Origin: Desulfobacula sp.
GTDB taxonomy: Bacteria; Desulfobacterota; Desulfobacteria; Desulfobacterales; Desulfobacteraceae
NCBI GenBank assembly: GCA_018645325.1
Contig: JABGOU010000032.1
Span: 1 to 46,847 of the forward strand
Reading direction: 5' to 3'
Length of the DNA stretch: 46,847 nucleotides
A program made the position numbers and the translations under genes. Of the stretch, positions 3,124 through 22,180 are shown piece by piece. Numbering within the stretch: the stretch's first letter is position 1; every line of letters starts with the position of its first letter. The notes below the pieces were generated by a model. That model made no database searches. It was given only the letters and a program-made list of their open reading frames with translations, and was not told the origin of the DNA.

Positions 3124-4638
3124 TCATTTAAATATCCTTATCAATTCTTCGACATTTAGTATACCATTGATCAGCAGATAGAGGCATAAAATCAACACAA
3201 TACTTCCGAAAAAATAGTAGAGCCCATTCCAAGAAACTGGAGTTTTTTTAACAATTAAGCCAGGCAGTAATCTTTTTGCTTCTATACGTTCAATCCAGGA
3301 AGGCCTTTCATGCTTGAGTCTTTGTAAATCAATGCCGCCTTCAAACATGACAAGATCCATGGGGAAATGTTGTCGTCTCAGATGTCCGATAAAAAAGTGT
3401 ATGATAAAGACATGTCCCATGGCCAGAACAGCTTCAATACGATGAATCCACAGAAAAATATTAATTGTCCAACCTGGTATAAAACGGCTTGAAAACACTG
3501 GGGTATAAAGAATCAGGCCGGTGGTGCCAAGAATAGTGATGCCCCAGAAAACAGCCCAGTAATCAAATTTTTCCCAATAGGTCCAGCGATCAAATTTAGG
3601 GCATTCCCCAAGCCCCACAATCCATGCAGCGTGCTTAACCGCTTGCCTGGCATCTTCTATCCGGGGGAGGAGGGAATCAGGACCATACAAACTATTTAAT
3701 AAATTTTTCAAGTTAATTTTCTTAATAATATAAATCAGATGAAAAGCAAGAGATACAAGCATGAAAATCCCTGTTATTTTATGAATAAAAAGTGCTCGTG
3801 TATAACCGCCGAATAAAAATATTAAAAAATGTCCCCAATCCGTACCCGCATACATTCGGGAAAGGCCTGTTCCTGCCTGGATGACAAAAGAGAGCATCAG
3901 AACAAGGTGAAATGCCCGTTGTTCCTTGGTAAACCGTTCTATCCGGTTCATTTTTTCAGGAGGGTTTTTGGATTTATTTTTTTTTTGAGGCCAAAATTCA
4001 CGTATCCCCCATAATATAGTATGGGGAATAAAGGCTGCAAAAGTAACTGTAGCAAGGGCAGCCATGGCCCAAAATACATAAAATAATAATGGAAAACTTT
4101 TTTGTGTTGTTTTAAGTGCAGGATTAGGTTCGTGAACCACATAAGAAGCAAAAGATGCACTGGCACCTTTGTGGCATTTGGCGCATACAAAGGCATACCG
4201 GCGGATAGGATTCATTGAAGAATAATAATGCTTTATTCCGGCAATGGGCTCCCCGCCGTGGCACTGACGGCATGTGATTTTGGACCTGATCCTGTGCAGG
4301 TTTCTGGCATTCCGTGGATGGCAATCAACGCAGGAACGAGATTGATAAAATCTGAGTCCCAGATGTGAATCTTTCATGTACCTGCGATGTTTTATTTTGT
4401 CAGCAAAAGGAGAGACATCAAGCAACTTATTTTTATCTATAGGTACTAAGGCTGTGGATGGGTGCGATATTATGGGTCTGGTTTCATGTGCGCTATACTG
4501 TCTCTTTATGGTTTCCCCCTGATGATAAAGGTAGATCTTAGTTGTGGCCTCCTTTTGTGCTTGTGAGGGATCAGAGGTAAATAAAATCAACAGGACAAAT
4601 CCTGTTACAGCCCATTTGTATTTTATTGAATCCTCCAT
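3124..4638 (-). CDS. Trihaem cytochrome c fused to a membrane cytochrome b domain
   Basis: This 504-residue protein joins a periplasmic c-type part to a membrane b-type part. A signal/anchor segment lies at residues 9-27. Three CxxCH sites follow: CVDCH at 103, CRQCH at 123 and CAKCH at 152. After that come several membrane helices resembling the cytochrome b561 / formate dehydrogenase gamma family, with candidate haem histidines in FHLVLMLSF, FIHKITGIFMLV, LAFHLIYI and GHVFIIHFFIGH. Such proteins move electrons between menaquinol and periplasmic cytochromes. It is the last gene of the 13-gene minus-strand operon and starts 3 bases after the upstream stop, with a poor ribosome site, so translation is probably coupled. 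A role as a quinol-oxidising gate for the cytochromes encoded upstream is inference. Confidence 0.82.
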   Translation of the reverse strand: MEDSIKYKWAVTGFVLLILFTSDPSQAQKEATTKIYLYHQGETIKRQYSAHETRPIISHPSTALVPIDKNKLLDVSPFADKIKHRRYMKDSHLGLRFYQSRSCVDCHPRNARNLHRIRSKITCRQCHGGEPIAGIKHYYSSMNPIRRYAFVCAKCHKGASASFASYVVHEPNPALKTTQKSFPLLFYVFWAMAALATVTFAAFIPHTILWGIREFWPQKKNKSKNPPEKMNRIERFTKEQRAFHLVLMLSFVIQAGTGLSRMYAGTDWGHFLIFLFGGYTRALFIHKITGIFMLVSLAFHLIYIIKKINLKNLLNSLYGPDSLLPRIEDARQAVKHAAWIVGLGECPKFDRWTYWEKFDYWAVFWGITILGTTGLILYTPVFSSRFIPGWTINIFLWIHRIEAVLAMGHVFIIHFFIGHLRRQHFPMDLVMFEGGIDLQRLKHERPSWIERIEAKRLLPGLIVKKTPVSWNGLYYFFGSIVLILCLYLLINGILNVEELIRIFK

Positions 4639-4641
4639 AAT

Positions 4642-5910
4642 TTACCATCTTGGAGGGGTTTGATGAACCCTTAGCAGGGTCTTTTGAGATAGACTGTCAA
4701 AAAGTTTTTGCAAGGTCATAAGATCAGTTTCTTTATGTTTATGACAATTCTGGCATGCATTGGGAATCTCTGGATTTTTCAAAGTATCTTTTGGCAAAAT
4801 AGTTTTAAATACATGGGAATGTGTTATCCCGGCGCCTCCGTTTTGAGAAATTTTGGGCATATGGCAGCCAATACAATTGGCAAACGAGTGGATGGAATGT
4901 GACATGTTGTTATTGATCATTTTGTGGCATAAAAGACATTGTTGGGAGCCTGCCCCTCTGGTCTGATATTGGTTAGGAGGTACTCCCAATCGATGGACAT
5001 AGTGACAGGAAGTACAGGAAACTCCCTCTCTTGCGTGGGCCGACTTTTTCCAGTCATTGAATTGCATATAGCGGCCCTTGGCAAAATCATTGGGATAAAA
5101 AAATTCATTCCCCCCTGAACCAGGGGAAACAGGTTCATAATATATGTCCAGACTTCGCCCGGGCAGATATTGTACCGGCCATTCAACTCCTTTTACTTTG
5201 GTTGATCTGCCCCTGCTGTGACAGGAACCGCAAATTTGAGTTCTGAAAGCGGCAGGAAGATGAGATGGATTCACTATGGTACGATGCTTTTGGAAAACTG
5301 CTGTCTCAGGTAAGGCGATATGGTGTGAGCCTGGGCCATGGCAGGCTTCACAACCTACGCGTGGTTCAGAAAATTTATTTTCTTTTAAGTCTACGCCTGT
5401 TGCATGACATCCTCCGCATTTTTCTATCCAGGGCTCTTTATCCCATTTGTCTTCATTGCGGCTATACCACTTGTTATCTCTTGCATTGTATAAAATTGGA
5501 GCCACATACAAAATTTTGTTTTTCTCGATGAGGAAAGCTTGCTCCCATTGCATTCCCATTGTATATTTTACATCTTCTATTTTTGGGATATAGATTTTGT
5601 CTATTGAAACTTTGAGCTTTTCTTCAGATTGTTTAAGATCGGCTCTGATAACTTCAGGTTCGAACTCTACAATCAAGGCGTCTCGATTTTCTGTTACATC
5701 CTGAAGTGTGCGGCTGTGAAGGGTAGTTTCCCAAGAGTGATTGTGTTCCAAATGGCAGAATTTGCACTCTGAGGAGCCAACATACATTTTCGATTTTGAC
5801 AGAATTTTTTCAAGGTCAAATGATTTTTGACTTGAATCCGTCCCACAATTAACTACAAACAATGATAATAAAATGAGTACTGCAATTAGAATCCATGAAT
5901 GTGTTTTCAT
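4642..5910 (-). CDS. Octahaem c-type cytochrome lipoprotein
   Basis: This 422-residue lipoprotein has a signal peptide ending in the lipobox-like LFVVNC, with Cys22 as the probable lipidated residue. Eight CxxCH haem sites are visible: CKFCH, CGGCH, CEACH, CGSCH, CTSCH, CLLCH, CIGCH and CQNCH. The opening VGSSECKFCH resembles cytochrome c554-type domains. No CxxCK site is present, so it is not an NrfA-like nitrite reductase. It is clearly paralogous to the octahaem cytochrome at 11223-12512: both share a CHATG/CHSTG site, CEACHGPGS, CGSCH and a tryptophan-rich segment before the second haem. A good AAGGAG site precedes the ATG. It is the penultimate gene of the operon and likely carries electrons in the periplasm between the membrane cytochrome b and the molybdoenzyme. 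Confidence 0.85.
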   Translation of the reverse strand: MKTHSWILIAVLILLSLFVVNCGTDSSQKSFDLEKILSKSKMYVGSSECKFCHLEHNHSWETTLHSRTLQDVTENRDALIVEFEPEVIRADLKQSEEKLKVSIDKIYIPKIEDVKYTMGMQWEQAFLIEKNKILYVAPILYNARDNKWYSRNEDKWDKEPWIEKCGGCHATGVDLKENKFSEPRVGCEACHGPGSHHIALPETAVFQKHRTIVNPSHLPAAFRTQICGSCHSRGRSTKVKGVEWPVQYLPGRSLDIYYEPVSPGSGGNEFFYPNDFAKGRYMQFNDWKKSAHAREGVSCTSCHYVHRLGVPPNQYQTRGAGSQQCLLCHKMINNNMSHSIHSFANCIGCHMPKISQNGGAGITHSHVFKTILPKDTLKNPEIPNACQNCHKHKETDLMTLQKLFDSLSQKTLLRVHQTPPRW

Positions 5911-6024
5911 TGCATCTCCTTTGAATGGAAAATTGACTTAAAATGTCAAGATCCATGGGGAGCTTTAAAAATGGGTTTATTATGTGCTTATCCCATGATG
6001 CAAGGTTTGATATTCAATTCCGGT

Positions 6025-7269
6025 TCATTGGCTGTAAATAAGTTCAGGTTTTAGATCATAAGTCCAGGGTGCATTAGCATTTTTCCACCCATTGATTACT
6101 CGCTTACCATAGTTGGAACTGTCAGGATTTTTAAGTTTATCACCTTCAAATCCATCTATGATACTATATATTCTTTCAAATCCTGCGGTTGCCAGAATAT
6201 TTACGGCCAAGGCGCTCCTTACCCCTGAACGGCACATTAATAATATAGTATCTGTTTCTTTAAATTTCTTTTTTACATCAGACACAAAATTTTCATTAAG
6301 CGTCAAAACAGATCCAGGTTTTCGTTTTGGGCCTAGAAATTTGACAGGGATATTGTATGCCATTGATCCATGGCCGACAAAAAAATATTCGCCAATGGTA
6401 CGGGTATCTATGATTTTAATTTTATCAGGATTTTTCTTCCATTTCTCATAACCTGCCTTAGCAGTCAAATAGAGACCCAAAACAGTCTGTTTTTTACGAG
6501 GGATATGGGAAAGAGCAAAGGATTGTTCTGCTTTTTCAATTGCCTTTGTATCCATAGCGGGTTTGACCATCTCAAGGGATTTTTCACTGGATTCTTCTCC
6601 GTGCATGGCGGCAAGTTTCCACCATTTATAGGCCTGGATATTATTTTTTAAAACTCCGTGACCTTCCCAGAACATGTTTGCAATCTTTTTCATAGCGGAA
6701 ACATGCCCATTTTGAGCAGATTTTAAAATCCATTTTGATGCCTGATGAATATTTGATGATATGCCACGGCCTTCAAGGTACATCTGGCCCAGGCTGTGCT
6801 GTGCTTTTCCATTTCCCTGATCCGCTGCCAGGCGATACCACTGAGCTGCGAATGGTTCACTTTTGGCAATGCCCAGACCTTGTTCGTACATGGCTGCCAA
6901 ATTATTCTGTGCAGATTCAAACCCTTGTGAGGCTGCTTTTCTATACCATCCAATTGCCTGAATATAATCTTTGCCTTTTCTAAAGATATTGCCCAGTCTG
7001 TTTTGAAATTCAGGATCTTCCAAAGGCGTTGTTTGCTCTACAAGTGCACTGCCGTCAGCACCCACCCAGATGGTATCATCATCGTCATCAGCTTCCCCGT
7101 CCCCGGCCCAACCGCAAGCACCTGCAATCTCAGGCAATAAGATTAAAGAACAGATGAGACTAATTATAATAATAGATTTTATAGTCAGTATGAATTTATT
7201 TTCTTTGTGATAAGAATTTATAATCAACAAAAAGGGTGCAGTAACCCATGATATAAATTTAGACCCCAT
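6025..7269 (-). CDS. Sel1-repeat and rhodanese domain protein, exported
   Basis: This 414-residue protein has a hydrophobic export segment at about residues 26-50 (ending PEIAGAC), then an acidic linker GEADDDDD. Three to four Sel1-type TPR repeats follow at about 85-235, with AxWYRKAASQG and AAQWYRLAADQG signatures. A rhodanese domain fills about 265-400, with the active-site loop CRSGVRSA (Cys346). Rhodanese cysteines carry sulfane sulfur as a persulfide, and Sel1 repeats bind partner proteins. Its place inside a molybdoenzyme/cytochrome operon hints at sulfur handling in the periplasm: either delivery or trapping of a sulfur product, or sulfuration of the enzyme. That is inference. Whether the N-terminus is cleaved or stays anchored cannot be decided. 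Confidence 0.82.
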   Translation of the reverse strand: MGSKFISWVTAPFLLIINSYHKENKFILTIKSIIIISLICSLILLPEIAGACGWAGDGEADDDDDTIWVGADGSALVEQTTPLEDPEFQNRLGNIFRKGKDYIQAIGWYRKAASQGFESAQNNLAAMYEQGLGIAKSEPFAAQWYRLAADQGNGKAQHSLGQMYLEGRGISSNIHQASKWILKSAQNGHVSAMKKIANMFWEGHGVLKNNIQAYKWWKLAAMHGEESSEKSLEMVKPAMDTKAIEKAEQSFALSHIPRKKQTVLGLYLTAKAGYEKWKKNPDKIKIIDTRTIGEYFFVGHGSMAYNIPVKFLGPKRKPGSVLTLNENFVSDVKKKFKETDTILLMCRSGVRSALAVNILATAGFERIYSIIDGFEGDKLKNPDSSNYGKRVINGWKNANAPWTYDLKPELIYSQ

Positions 7270-7304
7270 AATTCACCTATAGGTATTATAATTATTTAAA
7301 GGAA

Positions 7305-8336
7305 TCAAACACCTTTGCCAAAAGGACAATGTGGGAATGAACATTCCTTGCAATCCATGCAAAGTCCGCCATGACCGAAAAATGCCAGCTCTTTTTTCCC
7401 GATATGTTCACCTGCCATGATTCTTGGCAGAACGAGATCCAGCACGGTAATTCTATGGTGAAGTCCACAGGCCGGTACACCTAAAAGCGGTATGTCATCA
7501 ATGTAAGCTGAAAGGAACATGGCTCCCGGCAGAACTGCGGTCCCATAGTTCATCTCGGTTGCGCCGGCCTGGCTGATCCCCGAACGCGTAACATCATCGG
7601 GATCAACACTCATCCCGCCGGTTAATAAGATAAGCTCGCATCCTGAATCCAGACATTTTAGTATGGCCTGTTTAATAAGGACTGAGTCATCCGGTGCATA
7701 TTCCACGCTTCGTATTTGAGATCCAAGATCCTCAATTTTTTTGGACAGCAATGGAGCAAACCCGTCTTCAATTAGTCCGCTATAGACCTCACTTCCTGTT
7801 ATAATCAAACCGGTTTTAAGGTTATTAACCGGTTTGACACCAATCGTTCCCCCATTACCTGCCGCTATCATGGCAGCCCGTTCAATGGGAGCTCGTTTCA
7901 TTACTAAAGGAATCGCACGTGTGGCCGCCACAAGATCCCCCTTTTTAACAAGGCGATGATTATGCTGGGTGGCGCACATGACTTCATCAATCATATTAAA
8001 TGCTGCCAATGATGCAATGTTGATGGAGATAATACCATCAATTGCTGCATGCAAGGTGATTTTCCCTTCTTTGGGGTCATTTTTCCAATGTATGCCTTTA
8101 CCTGCCAGACCTTTTGCCAAAATTTTTGCAGCCTGGTTTTCATGGATTTCATCGTCTTCAAGGTCTATCAGATAAAGATGATTCTTGCCAAGCTTTTGAA
8201 GACGGCAGATATCATCGTCACAGACTATATGTCCTTTCCTAAATGCCGCACCTTTGAATTCTCCGGGTCTTATTTCAGTTATATCATGTGCGAGGCGAGT
8301 ACCAACCGCTTTTTGAACACGAATTTTTTTAAGCAT
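7305..8336 (-). CDS. MoeA-like molybdopterin-binding protein with C-terminal cysteine motif
   Basis: This 343-residue cytoplasmic protein contains the molybdopterin-binding domain of the MoeA/CinA type. The region around residues 180-270 includes LIITGSEVY and the signature TGGMSVDPDDVT. The N-terminal part (AHDITEIRPGEFKGAAF) resembles MoeA-like proteins but is shorter than classic MoeA of about 400 residues. The C-terminus carries an extra motif, CMDCKECSFPHCPFG, which could bind a metal or Fe-S cluster. An AGGAGA site precedes the ATG, and the gene begins 21 bases after the FmdE-like gene. Its position in the operon suggests a dedicated role in molybdenum or tungsten insertion or in cofactor regulation, rather than the housekeeping enzyme. 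Confidence 0.8.
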   Translation of the reverse strand: MLKKIRVQKAVGTRLAHDITEIRPGEFKGAAFRKGHIVCDDDICRLQKLGKNHLYLIDLEDDEIHENQAAKILAKGLAGKGIHWKNDPKEGKITLHAAIDGIISINIASLAAFNMIDEVMCATQHNHRLVKKGDLVAATRAIPLVMKRAPIERAAMIAAGNGGTIGVKPVNNLKTGLIITGSEVYSGLIEDGFAPLLSKKIEDLGSQIRSVEYAPDDSVLIKQAILKCLDSGCELILLTGGMSVDPDDVTRSGISQAGATEMNYGTAVLPGAMFLSAYIDDIPLLGVPACGLHHRITVLDLVLPRIMAGEHIGKKELAFFGHGGLCMDCKECSFPHCPFGKGV

Positions 8337-8357
8337 GGCAATGTCTCCTTTGGTCTA

Positions 8358-9029
8358 TTATAAATTGTGTTTTTGAAAAAAATTGTTATCAGAAACATTG
8401 GTCCCATTGATAGGAGTCCAATCCATATGATCCCAGGTGATTTCATGGGCATCTGAAAAGTATGTATCCTCAGTGCATGGCCTGCAGACCGGCTTCTTAT
8501 CAATTATCACTTCTCTTTGATCACGCACCACCTGGCCACATCTCGAGCAGGTCATTTTTTTCCGGGTTGGACCCGGCATGTCATAGTCGTTTAATTTTAC
8601 ACTGACCTTCTGGACCCGGAACAGAACACTGTCCGGCATGAGTTTATATGCTTCCAGCTGCTGGGCGGATTTGCCTGCAACTTCCGGTGCATAATAAGGT
8701 GCAAGTGCACGGGCTTCTTCTGTTGAAATAATCCGAAAAACACTATTGGTTGAAAGGTTAATGAACGTGGCTGCCATTATCCCGTAATCGGCAAATTTCA
8801 GACTCCGTCTGCCCAGTTTTACCCCGGTCACATGGGCCACGGCATCACCAGCACAACGGTCCATTTCAATGTAGACAATCAGTTTTTTAATCTGATCGTG
8901 ACATGTGGGATCATCCAGTCCTATCAGGCGACAGCCTAATATTGCCATGCGAACTCCGATGATCTGCCCCGGACATAAATGTCCGTGCACTTTTGCCGAT
9001 TCACTGACAAGGGTTTTAAAGTCTTTCAT
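8358..9029 (-). CDS. FmdE-family protein with C-terminal zinc ribbon
   Basis: This 223-residue protein belongs to the FmdE family, named after formylmethanofuran dehydrogenase subunit E. The family motif ESAKVHGHLCPGQIIGVRMA sits near the N-terminus, with CAGDAVAHVTG following. A zinc-ribbon-like end contains CSRCGQVV and CRPC. FmdE-like proteins are often encoded beside molybdenum or tungsten enzymes in bacteria that lack methanogenesis; a metal-handling or cofactor role is commonly assumed but not proven. The start overlaps the end of nrfD by 14 bases, which points to translational coupling. Together with the following MoeA-like gene it forms a two-gene block likely to serve the molybdoenzyme of this operon. 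Confidence 0.82.
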   Translation of the reverse strand: MKDFKTLVSESAKVHGHLCPGQIIGVRMAILGCRLIGLDDPTCHDQIKKLIVYIEMDRCAGDAVAHVTGVKLGRRSLKFADYGIMAATFINLSTNSVFRIISTEEARALAPYYAPEVAGKSAQQLEAYKLMPDSVLFRVQKVSVKLNDYDMPGPTRKKMTCSRCGQVVRDQREVIIDKKPVCRPCTEDTYFSDAHEITWDHMDWTPINGTNVSDNNFFQKHNL

Positions 9030-10356
9030 TTACCACTCCTGATTTAATAATGTGTTCCTCAATTAGGTCATTGCTTTTTTCCGGTAAAGATGAAGAAGAT
9101 GTTTCTTTTAATGCAAGGACCTTTTCTCCCATAGTATAAACCAGGAGAAACGTGGCAAAAACACCCAGTAAAACAAAAATCTCCATCAGGGTCGGCAGAT
9201 AGGTCGGCAGATCTTTTGAGATATTAGGAAAAATTTGACCTGCAACAACGAATAGATACCGCATCACAAAGGCCCCGGTAAGTACCATTATACAACCTGC
9301 AAAAACAGATGGCAGGCTTTTTCTTTGGGCACCCCAAAGCAGAAAAAAGACCGGAAGAATACTCATGAGAAAAATTTCAAACCCCCAGAATCCAACCATA
9401 AAAGGTCCCTTTAATAACAAAAGTAAAGGACCCTGCTGCAATGGATTGAAAAGTCCCAGAGTAATCCGGCATGTTATAAAAAGCAGGCCGACTGCTAAAA
9501 GCAGGGCCAGAACCTGTGCCATCTCAAATATCAGAGACATAACCTGGGCCGGCATGGGATCATCACCTGTTTTATGGGAAATGATTGTCATTATAATAAG
9601 AAAAGCATAGCCGCAGAAAATGGCAGAGACAATAAAATAGGCTGGATAATAGGGCCCGTACCAAAGTGTTCGGGATTCAGAGTGGGCAAAAACCGACCCC
9701 AGCATGGATAGAGCAGAAATTCCAGCCAGAAAAGCAAGAGTACCGATCACTTTATGAAACCCCGGGTTTTCCAAAAGTTTGACTAAAACTGAATTTTTAA
9801 ATTTTTCCAAAGTCAACAGTGTTAAAATGGTTCTGATACGGCCGGTTGATGCAAGAGATCTTTTGAAAAGATCAGGCCTTATAAGCAAGTATAATTCCAA
9901 ACCGACAAACAAAAGATATCCTGAATATAAAGCTCCCATCCATGAAATAGCTGATCGAAAATTCGGGGAAATGGCATTGTAGATAGGCATTCGCTCAGGA
10001 TGCCCTAAGTGGAGCACAATACACAGCATACCAAATACAATCAGGGTCAGGGATAAAAATGCGATGCGTTTACCTAAAATTTCATAACGGTGCATACCAA
10101 AAACAGCCCCCAGGGCATTGATGATGCAAAGGCCCGATCCAGCCGCAACCAGAAATACATAAGTTGAAATCATACCGGCCCAGGGAATTTTAATAGAGAA
10201 TTCTAAAATTTCCAGGCTCGTTACAAAAGAGGCCAACAAAGCAAAGCCGCACAAAAGGATCATGGAAAGCAGACAAGTGATCCATATATAAAAACTTTTT
10301 TTTTTTCCCATGGCATCCAGGGCTGAGTGGCTTTTATATTTAATTTGTTGAATCAT
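9016..10356 (-). CDS. NrfD-family membrane quinone-interacting subunit
   Basis: This 446-residue integral membrane protein has about 9-10 predicted helices and the family features LVAAGSGLCIINALG and LHLGHPERM. NrfD/PsrC-type subunits exchange electrons with menaquinone and pair with a four-cluster ferredoxin. Here that partner is encoded directly upstream and overlaps by 17 bases. An AAGGA site precedes the ATG. The C-terminal 40 residues are hydrophilic and serine-rich (KETSSSSLPEKS). The pair is a likely menaquinol oxidation module feeding the octahaem cytochrome or the molybdoenzyme. The same subunit type occurs in Qrc, Psr and Nrf complexes, so the family alone does not fix the complex. 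Confidence 0.88.
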   Translation of the reverse strand: MIQQIKYKSHSALDAMGKKKSFYIWITCLLSMILLCGFALLASFVTSLEILEFSIKIPWAGMISTYVFLVAAGSGLCIINALGAVFGMHRYEILGKRIAFLSLTLIVFGMLCIVLHLGHPERMPIYNAISPNFRSAISWMGALYSGYLLFVGLELYLLIRPDLFKRSLASTGRIRTILTLLTLEKFKNSVLVKLLENPGFHKVIGTLAFLAGISALSMLGSVFAHSESRTLWYGPYYPAYFIVSAIFCGYAFLIIMTIISHKTGDDPMPAQVMSLIFEMAQVLALLLAVGLLFITCRITLGLFNPLQQGPLLLLLKGPFMVGFWGFEIFLMSILPVFFLLWGAQRKSLPSVFAGCIMVLTGAFVMRYLFVVAGQIFPNISKDLPTYLPTLMEIFVLLGVFATFLLVYTMGEKVLALKETSSSSLPEKSNDLIEEHIIKSGVVNERL

Positions 10357-11209: not shown

Positions 11210-11222
11210 CCTGACCCTCTGG

Positions 11223-12512
11223 TTATTTTTTATGAGCCGTAAAGGGTTTGGGCATATCATTCTTTCGGGCGGCCTCTAGAAATCCCGCCAGAGTTTCTGT
11301 AGGCGTATCCTTATGGTGATGACAAGCGTTACAGGCATTGGGTTGTTTTTCTATACCTCCGGCTTTAAGGGTATCCAAAGGAGACATAAAACTGAATGTA
11401 TGGCTGTGAGCATCTCCAGCTTCACCAATACCGGCGACTTTGGGCATATGACACTTCACACAGCTGCCAAAGGTATGAATCCTGTGCACTGATCGATACT
11501 GGGAAGCATTGTGGCAACTTTTGCACAATTGATCCTCAAAGAGCCGGGTCTTGGAACTTATGGCTGTTAATAAATTACTTGTATCTGCATTGGCGTTAAT
11601 GGAAGTTTTTCTCTGATGCACACTGTGGCAGGTGGCACAGGTCACCCCTGCCTTGGCATGTTCGCTCTGCTTCCAGTCAAGATATTGCTGGTTGCTGTAT
11701 TTAGATTCTCCACTAGGCCAGAAATACTTGGATTCATGACCATTACTTTTTTTAACTTCATCAAAGTGAAGCCGCAAATTGGCCTCTCCTTTGTGCTTTT
11801 GGTATGAGAATGGATAGGCATACCCGCCTTCCTTGTCCCGGCCTCGTGTATGGCATGATCCGCAAATCTGTGATGCCTGTGCCGGGGTCAATCGCCCGGC
11901 TTGAGTGATCGTCTCAATCTCAAATCCTGGAACTGCCTCAACATGGTTGCTGCCGGGGCCATGGCAGGCTTCACATCCGATTCCCATTTCCACAAACTCT
12001 TTTTTTTCAGGATCAAAGCCTGTGCTGTGGCAACCGGCACATTCTGTGATCCAGTCTCTTTTTTTCTCATCTGTGGTGGAATATTTTTTCCATTCCCCTT
12101 TTGTTACATTGTACTGGGCGGGTAAAACAATGATTCGATCCCCGGTTTTTTGAAGATACATCTGCTTCCACTGACTGCCCAGAGTATAATCCACGTCAGT
12201 TTTAGAAAAGGTTCTGATTTTACTTTCAGATTCAAAGTCGCCGATATTTGAATAGGGTTCAAGTTTGACATCCTTCATCATGCGTGAATGCAAAGATGTT
12301 CGCCAGTTTAAATACGTTCGTTCATGACAGTTTTTGCACGTCTTTGAACCAACAAATGTAGCATTATACCGATTTTCATATTTGCCCTCTAATTTTATGC
12401 CCTGTTCATGCAGCAAATCTTTTTTCAACATAAAAGTAGTGGCAATGATAACAATCAGTGATAAAGTAAATATTACACCAATAACTATCGGTATAATGGG
12501 AATCTTTTTCAT
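11223..12512 (-). CDS. Octahaem c-type cytochrome with N-terminal anchor
   Basis: This 429-residue protein has an uncleaved-looking N-terminal hydrophobic segment (residues 4-28) and eight CxxCH sites: CKNCH, CAGCH, CEACH, CGSCH, CATCH, CKSCH, CVKCH and CNACH. The region VGSKTCKNCH followed by SLHSRMM resembles cytochrome c554-type domains. It is a paralogue of the lipoprotein at 4642-5910, with the same order of haem sites and the same short motifs between them. The two are anchored differently: a membrane helix here, a lipid there. It sits between the TorD-like chaperone and the ferredoxin/NrfD pair, so it may collect electrons from the quinol module. No catalytic CxxCK haem is seen. Confidence 0.86.
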   Translation of the reverse strand: MKKIPIIPIVIGVIFTLSLIVIIATTFMLKKDLLHEQGIKLEGKYENRYNATFVGSKTCKNCHERTYLNWRTSLHSRMMKDVKLEPYSNIGDFESESKIRTFSKTDVDYTLGSQWKQMYLQKTGDRIIVLPAQYNVTKGEWKKYSTTDEKKRDWITECAGCHSTGFDPEKKEFVEMGIGCEACHGPGSNHVEAVPGFEIETITQAGRLTPAQASQICGSCHTRGRDKEGGYAYPFSYQKHKGEANLRLHFDEVKKSNGHESKYFWPSGESKYSNQQYLDWKQSEHAKAGVTCATCHSVHQRKTSINANADTSNLLTAISSKTRLFEDQLCKSCHNASQYRSVHRIHTFGSCVKCHMPKVAGIGEAGDAHSHTFSFMSPLDTLKAGGIEKQPNACNACHHHKDTPTETLAGFLEAARKNDMPKPFTAHKK

Positions 12513-12554
12513 GCTCTTTCCCCTTTTGCTTAGGACTCGCTCAAAAATTATCCG

Positions 12555-13196
12555 CTAAGTTTTATCTGTGAGCTGAAGCTCAAATTCAATAAATTCTTTG
12601 GTTAGACACACTATTTCTTTGTAAAAAACATGTTCAGCAGTGGCCAGGACCTTGACGCAAAAATCGGGAACCCAGCTGCCTATATGTTCCTTTAAAAATT
12701 TTCTCTGAATGGATACAAAATACTCAATCTGTTCTTCATCATTTATTTCCCGTGCATCTTTTTCCTGGAATGTCAGTTGTTTCATGAATTCAAATTCAAC
12801 TGAGATATGATCCGGAATGCCTTTAAAATCATCTATATATGTCATGCCCGCTGATTTGATGAACTTTTGCACTGCCACGGTAGACTCCCCCCACAGCTTT
12901 CCCCAGTCACCTCCGTCAAGCTTGTGATGCACTGATTCATGGGGAGAGATATGTTTTCCCGGCCCTATAAAGAGCCGGGAATATTCACATGCAAGTTCTT
13001 CTGTTAATTCATCTATATCGCCTTGGAAATGAAGATTCAGCTCTTTTGAGCCGCTTTCAGATATTATTTCCAAAAACCCTGATGCTTTAATCTGCTCAAG
13101 GAGGTCTCTTGAAACTTCATTCATATAAATTTCAGATAGAAGTCCGTAGATTACACTTCTCTGTTCTGCATCTAATTTTTCAATTGTTTTTTCCAT
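12555..13196 (-). CDS. TorD/DmsD-family molybdoenzyme chaperone
   Basis: This 213-residue cytoplasmic protein has the all-helical TorD-type pattern, including EYSRLFIGPGKHISPHESVH, the family signature near residue 90, and FEFMKQLTF further on. Such chaperones bind the Tat signal of a molybdoenzyme and hold it until the cofactor is inserted. Its position directly after the molybdopterin oxidoreductase gene supports this. I chose the ATG at 13196. A TTG three codons upstream is closer to the GGAGG and could be the true start. The pairing with the enzyme at 13223-15757 is inferred from adjacency; the second likely client is the Tat ferredoxin. Confidence 0.85.
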   Translation of the reverse strand: MEKTIEKLDAEQRSVIYGLLSEIYMNEVSRDLLEQIKASGFLEIISESGSKELNLHFQGDIDELTEELACEYSRLFIGPGKHISPHESVHHKLDGGDWGKLWGESTVAVQKFIKSAGMTYIDDFKGIPDHISVEFEFMKQLTFQEKDAREINDEEQIEYFVSIQRKFLKEHIGSWVPDFCVKVLATAEHVFYKEIVCLTKEFIEFELQLTDKT

Positions 13197-13222
13197 AAGA
13201 TTCAATAAACCTCCTTTTACAT

Positions 13223-15757
13223 TTATGCTTTGGTCACAGTGACCACTGTATCCATCCAAGCCTGCTGACCACTGATGGGATCAGGTTTGTTAGGAATAAT
13301 CCAGTTGGGATGTACGCCATAGGTATCCCAGGTTTTGAGTTTAAGGTCAGGATCATTATCCCCGGCCAGGGGTGCTTTTTTACCAGAGGCATACCGGCCG
13401 TACTCCCAGTGACCCAAATGATGGGAAATCGCAATCGCGCCAGGCACTAACCCTTCTGTAACATTGGCTTTTGTTATGATCTCTCCGATAGATGACCTAA
13501 CTTTTATCTTGTCCCCGGTTTTAATACCCAGTTGTTTGGCCGTAGCCGAATTGATCTCAGCCGGGTTATCATGATAGATTTCCGTCAGCCATTTACAATT
13601 CGTGGATCTGGAATGAATATGAACTGCAACCTTGTAGGTTGTTAGTATCAATTCATTGGATTTCAAGTTTTCATGTTCTTTATTTGGATAATAATGGGGT
13701 AAAGGAGAAAGTCCTTTGAGTTCCAGAAGATCTGAATAGATCTCAAAAAAACCAGACTTATTCAGTTTGTCCGGTTTAAAACCTTTAAAAACTTCATCCC
13801 CTATTTTAAGAGCAACATATCCTTTATAGGCATTCTTTGTTTTGGTGTAGCCTTTTTCCATGGCTTCGGCCTCTGTCTTTGCCTTGGATTTATGCCAGTT
13901 CCAATATGTTCCGATGCTCTCATCAAGGATAACGCCATCCTTTTTCAGATCGCCATCTTTGACTGCCTTTTTATAAGAATAAAACCTGGGTTTCGCCTTT
14001 GGATCATGCCATACCCCATGTTTTTTCATATACTCAAATCCACCGGCTTCTTTAACTCCAGGTGTTTTTTCGCAGGACAGCTTCACAAATTCCTCGGCAG
14101 AGCTAAAGCCTAAGGGAAATCCCATACGTTCACCAAGTTCACAAACAACATCCTTAAAATCACGACTTTCACCTAAAGGTTTCACAAATGGCTGGCGAAT
14201 ATAAAATTCTGCAATCTGGTCGGGCGATACCATATCTTCCCAGTCCCACCATTCAAGATAGGATGGATTAGGAAGAATCAAATCGGCCAGGGCCGCTGAT
14301 TCATCATAGTATGCATTGACGCAAACAGAAAATGGAATTAGGCTCTCATCTTTTAAAATATCAATATTTTCCTGGCACTCTCCATTGGCATAAACAGGCG
14401 TATAGCAATACCACATATAAATTTCAGGGCGGCCAGCTTTTCCGTCTTTTATGACTTTTAGTACCTGATGATTGGCGCCATGTGAAGGATAGGCAATATC
14501 CCCTTTAAACCCTTTTGCAACATTCAAGGCTTTTGCTTTAGGTTTTTCCTTAGGCCCTTTAGGGTATTTCCATTTGGCTCCCACAGCAAGGCAGCGTCCA
14601 CCGGGGTTGTCAATATTTCCGGTAATGGCTGCCAGCATCTGGACGGATCTTTCAGTCTCCGCTCCATATGCATGGGCCACGGCCCCTCTGTAACTGATCA
14701 GGCAGGCAGGTTTGGCTTTGGCAAATTCCAAAGCAATTTCTTTGATTTTAGCTGCCGGTACACCACTGATTTTTTCGGCCCAGGCCGGAGTATATTGATC
14801 CAGGTGTTTTTTTAAAGTACTGATTTTTTCATCAAAACTTGCATCAATATCTTTTGTGACTTTAAGATATTTGAAAAAATCCTTATCATAGAGTCCTGCC
14901 TCAAGTACTACATTGCACATGGCAAGGACAACTGCATTGTCTGTTCCAGGTTTGATAGGCACCCATTCTGTTGATTTTGCAGCAGTGTTGGAAATGCGGA
15001 CATCAAAGGTGACAAGTTTTACCTTGCGATCCACAATGGCTGACGACAACCGTAGCATACCGGGAATGGAGTTGGTGCCGGCTTCAAGGCAGTTAGATCC
15101 GAAATTGAGCACATATTTTGTATTGTCAAAATCCCAGTTGTCATAATGTTTGCCCCAGGTTAATTCCTGTGCAGTCCACTTACCGCCTTCACAGATAGAG
15201 GTATGATTTCCAACTGTTTTTGTTCCGTAATTTGCCAGGAAAACACTTTTGACTATTTTACTGGAAGACCCTTTCATACGGCCATAATGAAACATAAATT
15301 TTTCAGGATGACCGTCATCTCTTAATTTTTTTAGTCGGCCTGAAAGATCGGTCAATGCATCATCCCATGAAATACGCTTCCATTTTCCCTCGCCCCTTTT
15401 TCCAACCCGTTTCATTGGATAAAGGATTCTGTCCGGATCATAAAGCTGGTTGATGCCGGCAGCACCCTTTGAACATATTTTACCCCTTCCCCGGATGGAG
15501 TTGGGTTGGCCTTCTAATTTTACCAACCTCCCATCTTCAACATACCCCACCATGGAGTCCCTTGTGACGCAGTTCCAGCAGGCACTTGCAATCATCTGTC
15601 TTTCTTTGCTCGTTTTGGGAGAAAAATCCTTCCCTCCTTCCACGAAACTAACAGTTCCGGCCAGGGCTTTTGACTCAAACCCCTTGCCAATGGCAAGGGC
15701 TGCAGCACCCACTGCACCAAGTCGGAAAAAATCCCGGCGATTAAAATCTTTTGTCAT
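13223..15757 (-). CDS. Tat-exported molybdopterin oxidoreductase catalytic subunit (DMSO reductase family)
   Basis: This 844-residue enzyme starts with a Tat signal (NRRDFFRLGAVGAAALA). The N-terminal Fe-S motif reads Cys60-x2-Cys63-x3-Asp67-x27-Cys95, so aspartate sits exactly where the third cysteine is expected. Family segments GYVEDGRLVKLEG and GKWKRISWDDAL follow. Cys189, in GNHTSICEGGKW, is the likely molybdenum ligand by position. The C-terminal molybdopterin dinucleotide domain contains NPAEINSATAKQLGIKTGD. The family includes polysulfide, thiosulfate, tetrathionate, arsenate and selenate reductases; the sequence does not let me choose among them. Catalysis should be periplasmic, with the ferredoxin encoded just upstream (15775-16632) as electron partner. 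AGGAGG precedes the ATG. An inducible terminal reductase is more likely than an oxidase because of the NrfD quinone module, but this is inference. Confidence 0.9.
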   Translation of the reverse strand: MTKDFNRRDFFRLGAVGAAALAIGKGFESKALAGTVSFVEGGKDFSPKTSKERQMIASACWNCVTRDSMVGYVEDGRLVKLEGQPNSIRGRGKICSKGAAGINQLYDPDRILYPMKRVGKRGEGKWKRISWDDALTDLSGRLKKLRDDGHPEKFMFHYGRMKGSSSKIVKSVFLANYGTKTVGNHTSICEGGKWTAQELTWGKHYDNWDFDNTKYVLNFGSNCLEAGTNSIPGMLRLSSAIVDRKVKLVTFDVRISNTAAKSTEWVPIKPGTDNAVVLAMCNVVLEAGLYDKDFFKYLKVTKDIDASFDEKISTLKKHLDQYTPAWAEKISGVPAAKIKEIALEFAKAKPACLISYRGAVAHAYGAETERSVQMLAAITGNIDNPGGRCLAVGAKWKYPKGPKEKPKAKALNVAKGFKGDIAYPSHGANHQVLKVIKDGKAGRPEIYMWYCYTPVYANGECQENIDILKDESLIPFSVCVNAYYDESAALADLILPNPSYLEWWDWEDMVSPDQIAEFYIRQPFVKPLGESRDFKDVVCELGERMGFPLGFSSAEEFVKLSCEKTPGVKEAGGFEYMKKHGVWHDPKAKPRFYSYKKAVKDGDLKKDGVILDESIGTYWNWHKSKAKTEAEAMEKGYTKTKNAYKGYVALKIGDEVFKGFKPDKLNKSGFFEIYSDLLELKGLSPLPHYYPNKEHENLKSNELILTTYKVAVHIHSRSTNCKWLTEIYHDNPAEINSATAKQLGIKTGDKIKVRSSIGEIITKANVTEGLVPGAIAISHHLGHWEYGRYASGKKAPLAGDNDPDLKLKTWDTYGVHPNWIIPNKPDPISGQQAWMDTVVTVTKA

Positions 15758-15774
15758 GGTTATTCCTCCTTTGT

Positions 15775-16632
15775 TTAGCCAATGGTATCGAGCCAGGCAT
15801 CATTCTTTTCAAATTTCTTTTTTGCGGTAGCCATTTTTTCCAAAGCCCCATCCTGGTCTATGTAAAACACCATGGGTTGAGTATTTTCACCGGGTAGAAG
15901 AGTTGTAGAATCTGATTTCTCCAAAAGGCCAAATTCCTTTACAAGTTTGGCAACTTCACTTGAAGGATCATTTAAATCCCCGAATTTCCTGGCTTGTGTG
16001 GGGCAGATATTGACACATGCCGGCACAACGCCTTTATCAATACGATGCTGGCAAAGACTACATTTGGTGATACCGTTTTTGGTTGCATCTTTCCCTGCGA
16101 CCAGGAGTTTGTCAAAATTTCGGGCACCATATGGACAGGCATTTATACATTTGCCGCAACCTGTGCAATACTGATTGTCAAATAAGACTAATCCGTCAGG
16201 GCGTTTATAAGTAGCTCCGCCGCGATAACGAATTGTTTTACCGTCTTTATCAATAAATTCACGCCTGTCTTTTGGATATTCCGGGCACTCTTTTATGCAT
16301 GGAGGAATATCATCTTCTTTGTTTCCCTCACAATGATTGCACAGCCTTGGTAAAAATAATTTTGTGGAATTTGGATACTTGCCTGTAACTTCTTCGTATA
16401 CGGCTGTTTGAAATGCACCCAGGGGTGTCTGGTATTCGGCTTTACAAGCCACTGTACAGGCCCTGCAGCCCACACAACGTCTTAAATCTACAATAAAAGC
16501 CCAGCGAGGTGCGTTCCCTTTACGGGCAGCCAAAGCTGTCCCAGCCGGAATCATACCGGCTGTTGAGCTGAGAGCTGCAAGACCTGCTCCCTTAAGCAGT
16601 TGCCGTCTTGTGACGGATGTCCTTTGACTCAT
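15775..16632 (-). CDS. Tat-exported four-cluster ferredoxin subunit (PsrB/DmsB-like)
   Basis: This 285-residue protein has a Tat signal, TRRQLLKGAGLAALSSTAG, ending near ALA. Four [4Fe-4S] sets are visible: CVGCRACTVAC; CNHC with CIKECP; CTGCGKCINACP; and CSLC with CVNICP. There is no C-terminal membrane helix, unlike the second ferredoxin of this operon. It is encoded directly upstream of the molybdoenzyme with 17 bases between them, so it is the probable electron-transfer partner of that catalytic subunit. GGAGAGG precedes the ATG. Having both a soluble and a membrane-tailed ferredoxin suggests two separate modules linked by cytochromes. Confidence 0.9.
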   Translation of the reverse strand: MSQRTSVTRRQLLKGAGLAALSSTAGMIPAGTALAARKGNAPRWAFIVDLRRCVGCRACTVACKAEYQTPLGAFQTAVYEEVTGKYPNSTKLFLPRLCNHCEGNKEDDIPPCIKECPEYPKDRREFIDKDGKTIRYRGGATYKRPDGLVLFDNQYCTGCGKCINACPYGARNFDKLLVAGKDATKNGITKCSLCQHRIDKGVVPACVNICPTQARKFGDLNDPSSEVAKLVKEFGLLEKSDSTTLLPGENTQPMVFYIDQDGALEKMATAKKKFEKNDAWLDTIG

Positions 16633-16662
16633 GATCCTCTCCTTTTCATAAAGTTAAAATTG

Positions 16663-18219
16663 CTATTGCCTATCCTCTACGTAATCCATAACGTCTTCAA
16701 AGGACGAGATGGCAGCATCGATCAACATGATTGAATATTTCTTATTGTGAACCCCGTTGCCGTGAATAACGATATCCATAAAATCTTGACCCTGCTTCAA
16801 CATCGTCTTTGCAGTCTCCAGGTCTGTTTTAGACAGTTTGGGCTCAGTGTCAGTTAATATGTCAACGGCCTCCTGCAGGATTTCACGGGAATATTCAATT
16901 TCTTTCTTTAATTCTTTTTTCCAGTCCTCAAGCATTTTGTCATGTCCTTTGACATGACATTGCACGCATGTTTTGCCCGAGGCACCCAGAACCCTTTGAC
17001 CTTTAGCAGTGGTTTTCATTTCATTATGGCATCCAAAACAATTGGTTCTCACCTTGTACATGGGCTCAATAGCATCCAAAACACCTTTTCTTTTTTCTCC
17101 CTTTGCAAGCATAACCTGGTATTGATGAGGCTCAGGGTGGCAGGCAGCACAACCTTTTTTAATAGTTGATTTTAAGGCAAGTTGACCAAAAGGTTCTTTT
17201 TCTGACGCCGCTTTTCCAGATTTCGCATGGGTAATGGGTCTGTGGCAGTCAAAACAGCGTGCATTTTTAACAGTGACATGTTTTTCATGCATCAGTTTCT
17301 TGTTAGTGTCTTCTTTTAATCGTTCGGCCCGGTCATGGCAGGACCGGCAGTTTTCTTTTTTAATGGTATCCGTTCCCAGAGTTAGAGCAGTCTGAAGCAT
17401 ACCATTCTCAAAGTAGGCTTCAACGCTACCTCCGCCTGTGGCCTGGATCAGGTCTATGTGGCAACTTACGCAGGAAACCGCTGCTTTTTGAAGCATTTCA
17501 TGGGTAATTGGCTTTTCCCCGGAAGTTTGAATGGGTTTTTTGGGGAGCTCGTGGCACAAAATGCATTTGGCACGGTCCTGATTAAATGTCTCATTTGTAA
17601 AATGACACTGGTGGCAGGAAGCTTTTGTGACTTCAAATTTTTTTTGATTGGTTTCATGCTGATGACAGGAAGTGCATTGGAGCTTCTGGCCTTCTATTTG
17701 GTTTTTTAGGTCAAGATGAGAAAGGTGAACAAATGTAACTTTTTCAGTAAATTTAATTTTTTTGGTTTTAAATTTGTCATCAGGTTTGCCATGACAGGCT
17801 GATGTCATACAACTGTCATCAATTATTCTTGGACGGGTTTGAACTGATTCCCCTCCCAGATTCAGATAAGAAAAACGATCAGGAGCAACCGCCGGAATAT
17901 GGTTTTGAATCAACCCTGCCGGCATTTTGGTCAGTTGTTTTCCGGGAGGGTAATGGCATTGCGCGCAACCAATATCTTTGTGTTTATCCTTTTTTAAGAG
18001 TTCATAGCTTTTTTGAACAATATTCGGATAGGTGATCACATGGCAATAACCGCAGAAAAATTGAGGCTTTGGAGGTTCTGGAGATGGTAAATTATTTGGA
18101 TTTTGACTATTTTGTTGTGCACCTAACACAATAGATCCAAATGTTTGAATCCCCAAAGAACATAAAAGAAAAAGAAAAATCTTGAAATGGTTTTTCATCG
18201 AGTCTTTACTGGCTGTCAT
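16663..18219 (-). CDS. Dodecahaem c-type cytochrome, exported
   Basis: This 518-residue protein has a signal peptide (hydrophobic residues 12-34) and twelve haem sites. Eleven are CxxCH: CGYCH, CAQCH, CTSCH, CHQCH, CILCH, CVSCH, CRSCH, CFDCH, CAACH, CFGCH and CVQCH. One is CX4CH at residues 137-143 (CMTSACH), a spacing also known in tetrahaem cytochrome c3. Many isolated histidines could supply second ligands. After the last haem, about 90 residues without cysteine (EDWKKELKKEIEYSREI onward) look helical and may be a docking domain. The start overlaps the end of the receiver-like gene by 14 bases, with AGGAG 8 bases before the ATG. It probably wires the molybdoenzyme to other periplasmic cytochromes. 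Confidence 0.87.
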   Translation of the reverse strand: MTASKDSMKNHFKIFLFLLCSLGIQTFGSIVLGAQQNSQNPNNLPSPEPPKPQFFCGYCHVITYPNIVQKSYELLKKDKHKDIGCAQCHYPPGKQLTKMPAGLIQNHIPAVAPDRFSYLNLGGESVQTRPRIIDDSCMTSACHGKPDDKFKTKKIKFTEKVTFVHLSHLDLKNQIEGQKLQCTSCHQHETNQKKFEVTKASCHQCHFTNETFNQDRAKCILCHELPKKPIQTSGEKPITHEMLQKAAVSCVSCHIDLIQATGGGSVEAYFENGMLQTALTLGTDTIKKENCRSCHDRAERLKEDTNKKLMHEKHVTVKNARCFDCHRPITHAKSGKAASEKEPFGQLALKSTIKKGCAACHPEPHQYQVMLAKGEKRKGVLDAIEPMYKVRTNCFGCHNEMKTTAKGQRVLGASGKTCVQCHVKGHDKMLEDWKKELKKEIEYSREILQEAVDILTDTEPKLSKTDLETAKTMLKQGQDFMDIVIHGNGVHNKKYSIMLIDAAISSFEDVMDYVEDRQ

Positions 18220-18586
18220 CTCTTATGCTCCTAAGTAAATAAAATAGTTCATCAGGGTCAATGGATTTGTTGATACATGCATATACGTGGTAGCATATCG
18301 TTTCTTTAAGCTTTGGATGGTAGTTTTTGTCCGACATACACAAAAACGGGGTATGGGAATATTGTACAGTTAATTCTCTCACCTTTCTGTTCTCAACAGG
18401 GACGGTATCGATATCTATTAAAACTGCCATACATTCTTCCCAGGATAAATACGCTTCTAATTTCTTAATCGATTTTATGGTAATTCCTTTATACTCCTCC
18501 TCCATGAGCAGCTGAATCAAGGACTTGTATCCGTCGTCACTTTTGCCCACAATAACAATCAAAGTTTCAGCACAATCTTTATCCAT
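18206..18586 (-). CDS. Receiver-like protein, stand-alone
   Basis: This protein of about 126 residues resembles a response-regulator receiver domain without an output domain. A hydrophobic strand LIVIVG is followed by VLIDIDTVP, whose aspartates sit where the phosphorylated residue is expected. Then PFLCMSD supplies a Ser/Thr position and CINKSIDPDEL a conserved lysine. The acidic pair near the N-terminus is not clear, so it may be a degenerate receiver. It is the first gene of the 13-gene operon; no histidine kinase is nearby. The ATG at 18586 is preceded by a 16-base tandem duplication that moves the best ribosome site one repeat upstream (see the repeat entry). A TTG at 18607 is in frame but has no usable spacing. 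Confidence 0.6.
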   Translation of the reverse strand: MDKDCAETLIVIVGKSDDGYKSLIQLLMEEEYKGITIKSIKKLEAYLSWEECMAVLIDIDTVPVENRKVRELTVQYSHTPFLCMSDKNYHPKLKETICYHVYACINKSIDPDELFYLLRSIRDDSQ

Positions 18587-18609
18587 GACAATCTTTATCC
18601 ATGACAATC
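18572..18609. repeat. 16-base tandem duplication at the start of the receiver-like gene
   Basis: The unit AATCTTTATCCATGAC (plus strand) occurs at 18574-18589 and again at 18590-18605, with matching bases on both sides. On the minus strand each copy contains an ATG. The upstream ATG (18602) has AAAGGTGA six bases before it but opens only a seven-codon frame, whose stop overlaps the downstream ATG region. The downstream ATG (18586) opens the real gene. Confidence 0.85.
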
Positions 18610-18709
18610 ACCTTTGATTTGATCTGTAAATTATAGCAAAAAGACCGAAATGATTAGATATTGATACTCAAATAGCTACTTTAAATACTCATACCCATCA
18701 TTTGTGATA

Positions 18710-18726
18710 ATCAATATTTGTGCCAA
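18710..18726 (-). promoter_or_regulatory. Sigma-54-like -24/-12 promoter for the respiratory operon
   Basis: On the minus strand the sequence is TTGGCACAAATATTGAT. The -24 box TTGGCAC is perfect and the spacing to TTG is correct; the usual GC at -12 reads GA. Transcription would start near 18699, about 110 bases before the first gene. The adjacent gene (19008-21230) encodes a sigma-54 activator, which supports the call. The gap 18608-19007 otherwise holds the inverted repeats listed below. Confidence 0.55.
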
Positions 18727-18746
18727 AACGTGTGACTTGTCTGAAC

Positions 18747-18762
18747 GACATAGGAATGTGTC
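18747..18762. promoter_or_regulatory. Inverted repeat near the sigma-54-like promoter
   Basis: GACATA-GGAA-TGTGTC is an imperfect inverted repeat centred about 55 bases upstream of the proposed start site. It shares GTGTC/GAC half-sites with the repeat at 18935-18957. A role as an activator site is speculative. Confidence 0.3.
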
Positions 18763-18796
18763 TATTTGTAAATGCTGTAAAGACTAAGAATAAAAG

Positions 18797-22149: not shown

Positions 22150-22180
22150 CAAAATCCTTTTGCAAACAAGTTGAAAAAAA

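Follow-up and report, generated by a model that had tools for sequence, protein, structure and literature searches.

The stretch of DNA analysed here (hereafter the window) comprises 46,847 nucleotides of contig JABGOU010000032.1 from Desulfobacula sp. (assembly GCA_018645325.1), and the system of interest is an operon for a molybdoenzyme and multihaem cytochromes on its minus strand. Between positions 3124 and 18607, 13 open reading frames (ORFs) are close-packed, with inter-gene distances of -38 to +114 bases and five overlaps, and the computed count of c-type haem motifs is 31 (3+8+8+12; CXXCH plus one CX4CH). A first-pass annotation made from the letters alone had described a tightly packed 13-gene operon with several overlaps and about 31 haems, and both points were confirmed. 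Pfam returned molybdopterin oxidoreductase, nitrate-reductase-delta/TorD-type chaperone, NrfD, two Fer4_11 ferredoxins, FmdE, MoCF_biosynth, cytochrome b561-type and Sel1 plus rhodanese domains, which together with NCBIfam agrees with the annotated Tat molybdoenzyme, two four-cluster ferredoxins, NrfD, cytochromes, TorD, FmdE-like and MoeA-like proteins; 16 cluster cysteines could be read from the translation of each ferredoxin. The lower boundary given earlier stood, whereas the upper one, 18586, is a downstream ATG of a first gene that starts at 18607 (TTG). Beyond these 13 genes the unit stretches upstream as far as 22152, taking in a PhnD-like sensor (21184–22152) and a membrane-spanning sigma-54 activator (19008–21230), also on the minus strand; these two genes share 47 bases, and a 400-base gap separates the activator from the first operon gene. 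Below, the catalytic subunit is called MopA, the ferredoxins FeS1 and FeS2, the octahaem cytochromes OctA and OctB, and the dodecahaem cytochrome C12; L and G numbers are our labels for loci and genomes.

The order of the operon genes was searched for in other genomes. It is found again in G001 (L062, which shares its contig with L082) and in G011 (L063), and some dozen further named genomes have part of it, so the arrangement is not chance. Among 38 relative genomes, MopA orthologues were found in two besides the window's own, G001 (96%) and G011 (73%), at ~1460 bits or more, with best matches below 225 bits in the others; for OctB, only G001 and G011 again stood out among 86 genomes of the family (80–90%, others at most 43%). 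Across 395 genomes of the phylum, 21 reached E 1e-75, and only G063 exceeded 50% identity besides the window's own. Scanning named genomes with a four-row profile yielded 193 pattern matches; 138 were confirmed as relatives, and the best 80 of these, from 74 assemblies by accession prefix, were kept. Record titles place them in seven phyla: Desulfobacterota, Nitrospirota, Nitrospinota, Pseudomonadota (Alpha- and Gammaproteobacteria, Magnetococcales), Marinimicrobia, Omnitrophota and Lindowbacteria; a few name no phylum. These 80, with L063, L064 and the Azoarcus plasmid locus L176, make up 83 neighbourhood loci, many of which end at contig ends, so the counts are lower bounds: ferredoxin 73, TorD 67, C12 35, NrfD cluster 34, PhnD-like sensor 28, sigma-54 response-regulator-type regulator 24, kinase-type protein 21, OctA/OctB 17 and single-chain activator 9 (Pfam checks covered one representative per cluster for NrfD, kinase and regulator). 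Two plans could be distinguished. Many proteobacteria have FeS1-NrfD-MopA-TorD; Desulfobacterota and Nitrospirota have C12-FeS1-MopA-TorD, with or without OctB-FeS2-NrfD and OctA-cytochrome b. C12 is also present in some proteobacteria, including Thiodiazotropha.

For the sensor (PF12974), the best match in the PDB was ArrX 6x6b (E 1.4e-54, 189 bits), with a further ArrX match at 185 bits, AioX at 142–144 bits and the phosphonate/phosphite proteins (PhnD/PtxB) at no more than 68 bits; among solved binding proteins it is closest to AioX/ArrX. It belongs to the ArrX/AioX subfamily and, from its sequence, is possibly a lipoprotein. Seven AioX pocket residues are listed in the accessible text of PMC5908839 (Tyr88, Cys106, Tyr131, Ser161, Ser163, His192 and Asp210), and all map onto the sensor, as Tyr95, Cys113, Tyr140, Ser170, Thr172, His201 and Asp219. 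Six are identical, and the ArrX-type protein encoded at L186, an ArrA locus, shares the Ser163 to Thr172 change. According to the same text, ArrX has arsenate as its ligand, with weaker binding of phosphate, and AioX and ArxX have arsenite; none of the other ions tested by calorimetry, antimonite included, was bound by any of the three. The earlier suggestion that the PhnD-like sensor hints at an oxyanion was right, and its relatives sharpen it: there is strong sequence evidence pointing to an arsenic-type sensor. From the relatives and pocket we infer that this periplasmic protein binds an oxyanion. A phosphonate reading of the PhnD annotation was rejected, since the PhnD equivalog model gave 151 of the required 261 bits and the arsenic-type relatives fit far better; the broad TIGR01098 cut-off was passed (145 bits, cut-off 112). 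No parts of an ATP-binding cassette (ABC) transporter were found by Pfam in the 18 genes scanned around the sensor; two ABC exporter-type genes lie ~19 kb off, at 41135–44648.

In a 32-row sensor tree (midpoint root, with a long ArxX row), the window sensor and the Desulfobacterota and Nitrospirota rows fell with the L186 sensor (87/84, then 83/81 without three rows), and the proteobacterial rows with Cereibacter ArxX (94/91). This division bears on the direction of the reaction. The same family and machinery might run as an arsenite oxidase, or reversibly, with electrons from arsenite passing through the haem proteins to the quinone pool as in Arx. Such a role would suit the proteobacterial members, whose sensors group with ArxX and often stand with kinase and regulator genes, and L068 (G053:C31), where an ArxA-clade enzyme lies close to a relative of the MopA family. 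The window sensor, however, groups with ArrX, and menaquinone as acceptor of arsenite electrons would be uphill in a sulfate reducer, so that we consider oxidation unlikely here. The host is probably an anaerobic sulfate reducer; a partial dsrA where one contig ends (156 of 393 bits) and, on another contig of the same genome, a gene for the arsenite pump ACR3 would fit this.

The activator was examined by Pfam and hydropathy. Hydrophobic helices at residues 20–38 and 176–194 flank a presumably periplasmic domain of ~137 residues, followed by HAMP, AAA+ and Fis-type helix-turn-helix domains. In place of a kinase S and regulator R, the window locus has this single membrane-spanning chain. The gap ahead of the operon contains TGGCACAAATATTGAT on the operon strand, and a sigma-54 (-24/-12) promoter-like site, TGGCACAAATATTGA, was located at 18711–18725 on the minus strand by pattern scans and cross-locus comparison. 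The pattern TGGC[AC]N6TTG[CA], which was chosen after seeing the window site, occurs in the pre-operon gap of 10 of 11 loci with the same arrangement (0.12 expected; at most two in any of 400 shuffle sets); in the gap of L137 it was not found. Sixteen loci were examined in all, and the five of other arrangement left out of this count (L112, L117, L142, L143 and L151) gave one match, in L151. From the site to the listed start of the following gene the distance is only 12 bases in L121, 22 in L083 and 31 in L086, so short that the true starts may lie further downstream. A broad sigma-54 pattern allowing one mismatch was found 50 times across the whole window against 48 expected, no better than chance, and therefore only the position and conservation of the site count. 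The operon is real, conserved and probably inducible; induction, as proposed in the first-pass annotation, is suggested by the dedicated sensor and sigma-54 switch. Once loaded, the sensor would signal, probably by binding to the periplasmic part of the adjacent activator, which would then drive RNA polymerase–sigma-54 at 18711–18725, a single chain thereby replacing the sensor kinase and response regulator of AioXSR/ArxXSR cassettes.

MopA (13223–15757) is a molybdopterin oxidoreductase by Pfam, with a Tat match below cut-off and Cys189 as the predicted molybdenum ligand. Its nearest solved relative is ArrA, both by sequence (profile E 4e-69) and by fold (Foldseek E 2e-48, for a model of mean predicted local distance difference test score (pLDDT) 86), with polysulfide reductase second by fold (4e-45). 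The NCBIfam models for QrcB (201.8 bits, cut-off 440) and TtrA (131 bits, cut-off 1750) were not passed. In a careful tree of 35 rows with TtrA as outgroup, 19 family rows formed a single clade (100/100), to which a wider group with the Azoarcus protein attaches (100/99), and ArrA plus ArxA formed another clade (100/99) from which the MopA family stood apart. A quick 116-row tree, rooted on DmsA, agrees in placing the family outside the ArrA+ArxA clade. The family is also apart from the TtrA and PhsA rows, PhsA being a long row of unsure place; PsrA and QrcB were not represented in the trees. The ArrA and TtrA reference rows owe their names to NCBIfam scores, PhsA and DmsA to plasmid annotation and Cereibacter ArxA to its operon context; none of the ArrA and TtrA reference loci is over its own family's strict cut-off. 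Within these bounds the earlier statement that the operon is not Qrc, Psr/Phs, Ttr or Arr held, and on sequence grounds MopA belongs to neither ArrA nor ArxA and forms a third lineage alongside them.

In the family alignment of 91 rows, Cys189 and the surrounding Arg160, His185 and Lys193 are kept in 89, and Tyr205, also around it, in 83. Arg160, His185, Cys189 and Tyr205 align with ArrA, and Lys193 is one place off ArrA Lys198; the ArrA residues matching this pocket we take to be Arg165, His189, Lys198 and Tyr210. MopA carries YGRMK (Met in 72/91 rows) in place of the (R/K)GRY of ArrA or XGRGWG of ArxA, motifs given in the available portion of PMC6549141. At residue 67, Asp replaces the third cysteine of the N-terminal iron-sulfur cluster, as in 37/91 family rows. 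Rows with C12 upstream (n = 34) had 27 Asp and 7 Cys and those without it (n = 57) 43 Cys, 10 Asp and 4 gaps, a count that omits the window row (L176, an Asp row, lies outside the family). Because basal rows without C12 also have Asp, this link may reflect ancestry rather than function. Four MopA-like relatives (L070, L074, L076 and L079) lack the molybdenum-ligating Cys and the Arg-His pattern in the alignment, and may be inactive or use another ligand. A second molybdoenzyme fragment is present in the window's own genome (L189, G000:C127:1-9000), 38% identical to MopA over 341 residues and near a 1113-residue protein with 12 haem motifs. The function of the MopA family seems not yet to have been studied. 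Apparently novel Cys-using MopB lineages are mentioned in the part of PMC10100899 available. No description of the family or operon was found in a search of the open-licence literature; many relevant journals lie outside it and an earlier description is possible, so the first-pass term "undescribed" is kept for the open-licence papers searched and no wider claim is made.

Linkage to arsenic genes was then assessed. ACR3 genes flank five of 80 loci: in L083, L119, L121 and L140 they are over the NCBIfam cut-off, and in L084 the gene is incomplete at the stretch edge and just under it (274.7 of 282.8 bits). From the density in 79 Desulfobacterota genomes, 0.22–0.25 would be expected in the 1.27 Mb covered (P ~4e-6 to 7e-6); at one ACR3 per genome the expectation is 0.40 (P 6e-5), and at two it is 0.8 (P 0.001). 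In L083 the gene order is ArsR, ACR3, sensor, activator, operon, with ACR3 directly upstream of the sensor. In L110, ArsA is over cut-off and an ACR3-like protein reaches only 114 of 283 bits. On the Azoarcus plasmid pAZKH, genes annotated as arsA and ACR3 stand next to a set made up of sensor, kinase, regulator, FeS, NrfD, a 41% MopA relative and TorD. ACR3, ArsA and ArsR also serve antimony, which would favour an AnrA-like enzyme that respires antimonate, in a cell that senses and exports antimony via arsenic-type proteins. Seawater holds less antimony than arsenic, which speaks against this reading. AnrA is named as an Sb-specific reductase in the portion of PMC13284237 available, but the calorimetry reported in the accessible text of PMC5908839 gave no antimonite binding by AioX, ArxX or ArrX, and we regard antimonate as distinctly unlikely.

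The electron carriers are encoded throughout the operon. C12 (16663–18219) has 11 CXXCH motifs and one CX4CH, with c7 and NapC/NirT-like pieces by Pfam. OctB (11223–12512) and OctA (4642–5910) have eight CXXCH each and are 36% identical; OctB has an N-terminal hydrophobic anchor by hydropathy and a poor predicted structure (mean pLDDT 52). A periplasmic trihaem domain (three CXXCH) is fused to a membrane cytochrome b (3124–4638, PF01292); the fusion is also present in L063 (G011), and the two parts are separate genes in six related loci. FeS1 (15775–16632), a Tat-type four-cluster ferredoxin by Pfam, is the likely partner of MopA and scored 175 (TtrB), 153 (DsrO) and 142 (ArrB) bits with NCBIfam, none over cut-off. 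FeS2 (10340–11260), also Tat-type and four-cluster, has a C-terminal hydrophobic helix by hydropathy and is HmcB/HybA-like below cut-offs. The NrfD-family membrane quinone subunit (9016–10356, PF03916) is DsrP/HmcC-like, again below cut-offs, and its PDB matches were NrfD-type C subunits of Alternative Complex III and kin. By sequence, NrfD and FeS2 resemble the quinone modules of Hmc, Dsr and Alternative Complex III, and the cytochrome b with three haems is a possible second quinone site. C12 is likely the last carrier, because its gene adjoins FeS1-MopA. We infer an order and direction of flow in which menaquinol electrons would enter via NrfD/FeS2 and/or cytochrome b, pass through OctB, OctA and C12 to FeS1, and be used to reduce the substrate at the molybdenum bis-pyranopterin guanine dinucleotide (Mo-bisPGD) of MopA. 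The octahaem proteins could also be the real terminal reductases, acting on another oxyanion or an extracellular acceptor: the OctA/OctB profile aligns with residues 11–267 of 6i5b (E 1.6e-45), named as OcwA in the available text of PMC6703420. No porin or outer-membrane conduit was found among the 13 genes by Pfam, however, and OctA/OctB occur in only 17 of the 83 loci, many of them truncated, against 73 with ferredoxin and 67 with TorD, making this in our judgement highly improbable.

On this evidence we read the locus from 3124 to 22152 as encoding an inducible system for anaerobic respiration with an arsenic oxyanion, arsenate being the most likely, and hold this reading with somewhat better than even confidence. 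Arsenate reduction would be the direction because of the ArrX-type sensor and likely anaerobic host, and the case for arsenic as substrate is moderate. Several observations weigh against it. With the NCBIfam ArrA model NF041714, MopA gave 210.4 bits for a cut-off of 1600 (the three loci serving as ArrA references, at 1016–1097 bits, were likewise below); its best NCBIfam model is PhsA, at 336.5 bits and again not passed (cut-off 694). The fold lead of ArrA over polysulfide reductase is modest, the (R/K)GRY motif is missing, and FeS1 is closer in NCBIfam bits to TtrB and DsrO than to ArrB. Support joining the window sensor with ArrX is only moderate. Two Marinimicrobia sensors are very distant, the pocket Cys being replaced by Gly and the Asp by Lys, and at these positions L123 carries Ser and Gly, so that the family, judged by these pockets, need not be arsenic-specific throughout. 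As to linkage, the ACR3 expectation came from Desulfobacterota only and the loci from several phyla, P weakens to 0.001 if two ACR3 per genome are assumed, and ACR3 is common (48/79 genomes). In 75 of the 80 loci no such ACR3 was found in the flank examined, many flanks being truncated; ACR3 and an arsenic-type pocket occur together in only three of the five ACR3 loci (L083, L084 and L121), the L140 sensor being without the pocket Cys and Asp and no sensor being seen at the L119 locus. The window itself contains no ACR3, ArsA or ArsR-like ORF, other ars genes not having been sought, and the genome's ACR3 sits on a different contig.

Some of these points would suit a reductase of polysulfide, thiosulfate or tetrathionate, as in Psr, Phs and Ttr, with the rhodanese handling sulfane sulfur: PhsA is the top-scoring model, FeS1 is TtrB-like, polysulfide reductase is the second-best fold, and the operon carries a rhodanese. 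Yet MopA is far under both curated cut-offs (694 for PhsA, 1750 for TtrA) and apart from those rows in the tree, with the caveat on PhsA given above, and the sensor has an arsenic-type pocket; we rate a sulfur substrate very unlikely. The first-pass annotation had taken the rhodanese as a hint of sulfur, an idea dropped from the lead on family cut-offs, tree and sensor. A rhodanese gene is also found near annotated ars genes beside an ArxA-type operon; sulfur-gene linkage was not systematically sought.

Beyond arsenate respiration at this locus, we put forward more tentatively, at a little under even confidence, a third lineage of arsenic-respiring molybdoenzymes that is widespread, with members in Desulfobacterota, Nitrospirota, Nitrospinota, Alpha- and Gammaproteobacteria, Marinimicrobia and others. 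The enzyme would act as a reductase where the sensor is ArrX-like and as an oxidase where it is ArxX-like, the Desulfobacterota version having a multihaem wire, two quinone gates and a single-chain sigma-54 activator coupled to a binding protein. If so, arsenic respiration would be encoded in many lineages uncounted by surveys with strict arrA/arxA models, and sensor type, ArrX or ArxX, would be a testable prediction of direction. The operon would also be a compact example of two things: a binding protein that signals to a membrane sigma-54 activator with no kinase between them, and multihaem proteins that take the place of a molybdoenzyme's usual quinol dehydrogenase.

The remaining genes of the operon are as follows. 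TorD (12555–13259, PF02613; TorD model 83.9 of 132 bits), an FmdE-like protein (8358–9029, PF02663) and a MoeA-like molybdopterin-binding protein (7305–8336, PF00994) would mature the cofactor. The first gene (18206–18607) encodes a small receiver-like protein, with a FleQ match below cut-off, present in 11 of the 83 loci. The gene previously called a rhodanese (6025–7269) does encode one at its C terminus, but the protein as a whole is a secreted Sel1-repeat protein by Pfam; the fusion is a single ORF in the window and two overlapping ORFs in G001 and G011. Its N-terminal ACGWAGDGE is an instance of CGW[AW]GD[GS]E, a motif common to MopA-neighbour proteins whose later domains differ (Sel1-rhodanese; one representative weakly phosphatase-like). 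It is carried in 12 of 84 family loci (the window, L063, L082, L107, L142, L144, L145, L146, L152, L157, L158 and L160) and was not found outside these 84 among the other loci examined; a 66-residue window stretch containing it matched only its own genome in 297 genomes of the phylum.

Comparison across the genus showed a mosaic. Against G001, identity is 88–96% from the first gene to MopA, with FeS2 at 64% and NrfD at 42%; against G011, FeS2 is at 93% and NrfD at 81%, and the first gene to MopA only at 64–73%. From these identities it looks like an exchange of catalytic and quinone modules within the genus. Seven gammaproteobacterial loci (L122, L127, L148, L149, L153, L155 and L160) have two MopA genes close together, with NapC/NirT-type tetrahaem and ethylbenzene-dehydrogenase-like haem proteins upstream (one representative of each scanned). 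Elsewhere in the window, between 26322 and 39715, lie core genes (ribosomal protein L35, pheS, pheT, nusA, infB, truB and pnp) and a tRNA-Gly at 30602; the setting therefore looks chromosomal.

Compared with Arr (ArrAB with the ArrX sensor), the window system shares the nearest solved sequence and fold, a predicted Cys ligand with Arg/His/Tyr positions that align, a Tat signal, an ArrX-like sensor and a TorD-type gene nearby. It differs in that MopA lies outside the ArrA+ArxA clade (100/99), reaches 210 of 1600 bits and has YGRMK, not (R/K)GRY, and in having a single-chain activator, not a kinase and regulator; the electron donors of Arr are CymA or ArrC, where the window has a 31-haem path. 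Arx arsenite oxidase (arxB'ABCD + arxXSR) likewise places an oxyanion sensor beside FeS-Mo-TorD genes and uses an AAA+ sigma-54-type regulator, whereas the window system is without the XGRGWG motif and kinase, falls in a separate clade and adds multihaem cytochromes. With Ttr, Psr and Phs it shares periplasmic Mo-FeS-NrfD-type modules with a Cys ligand; MopA is under the PhsA and TtrA cut-offs and apart from those rows, and the window has two possible quinone modules and 31 haems. Among the Qrc, Hmc and Dsr complexes of sulfate reducers, HmcB/HmcC, QrcC and DsrO/DsrP resemble the FeS2-NrfD pair by NCBIfam scores, but all scores are below cut-offs (QrcB 202 of 440 bits) and the window has a dedicated oxyanion sensor. 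OcwA of Thermincola potens (6i5b), finally, aligns over residues 11–267 with the OctA/OctB profile; it has nine haems, in contrast to the eight of OctA and OctB, which stand in an operon with a molybdoenzyme.

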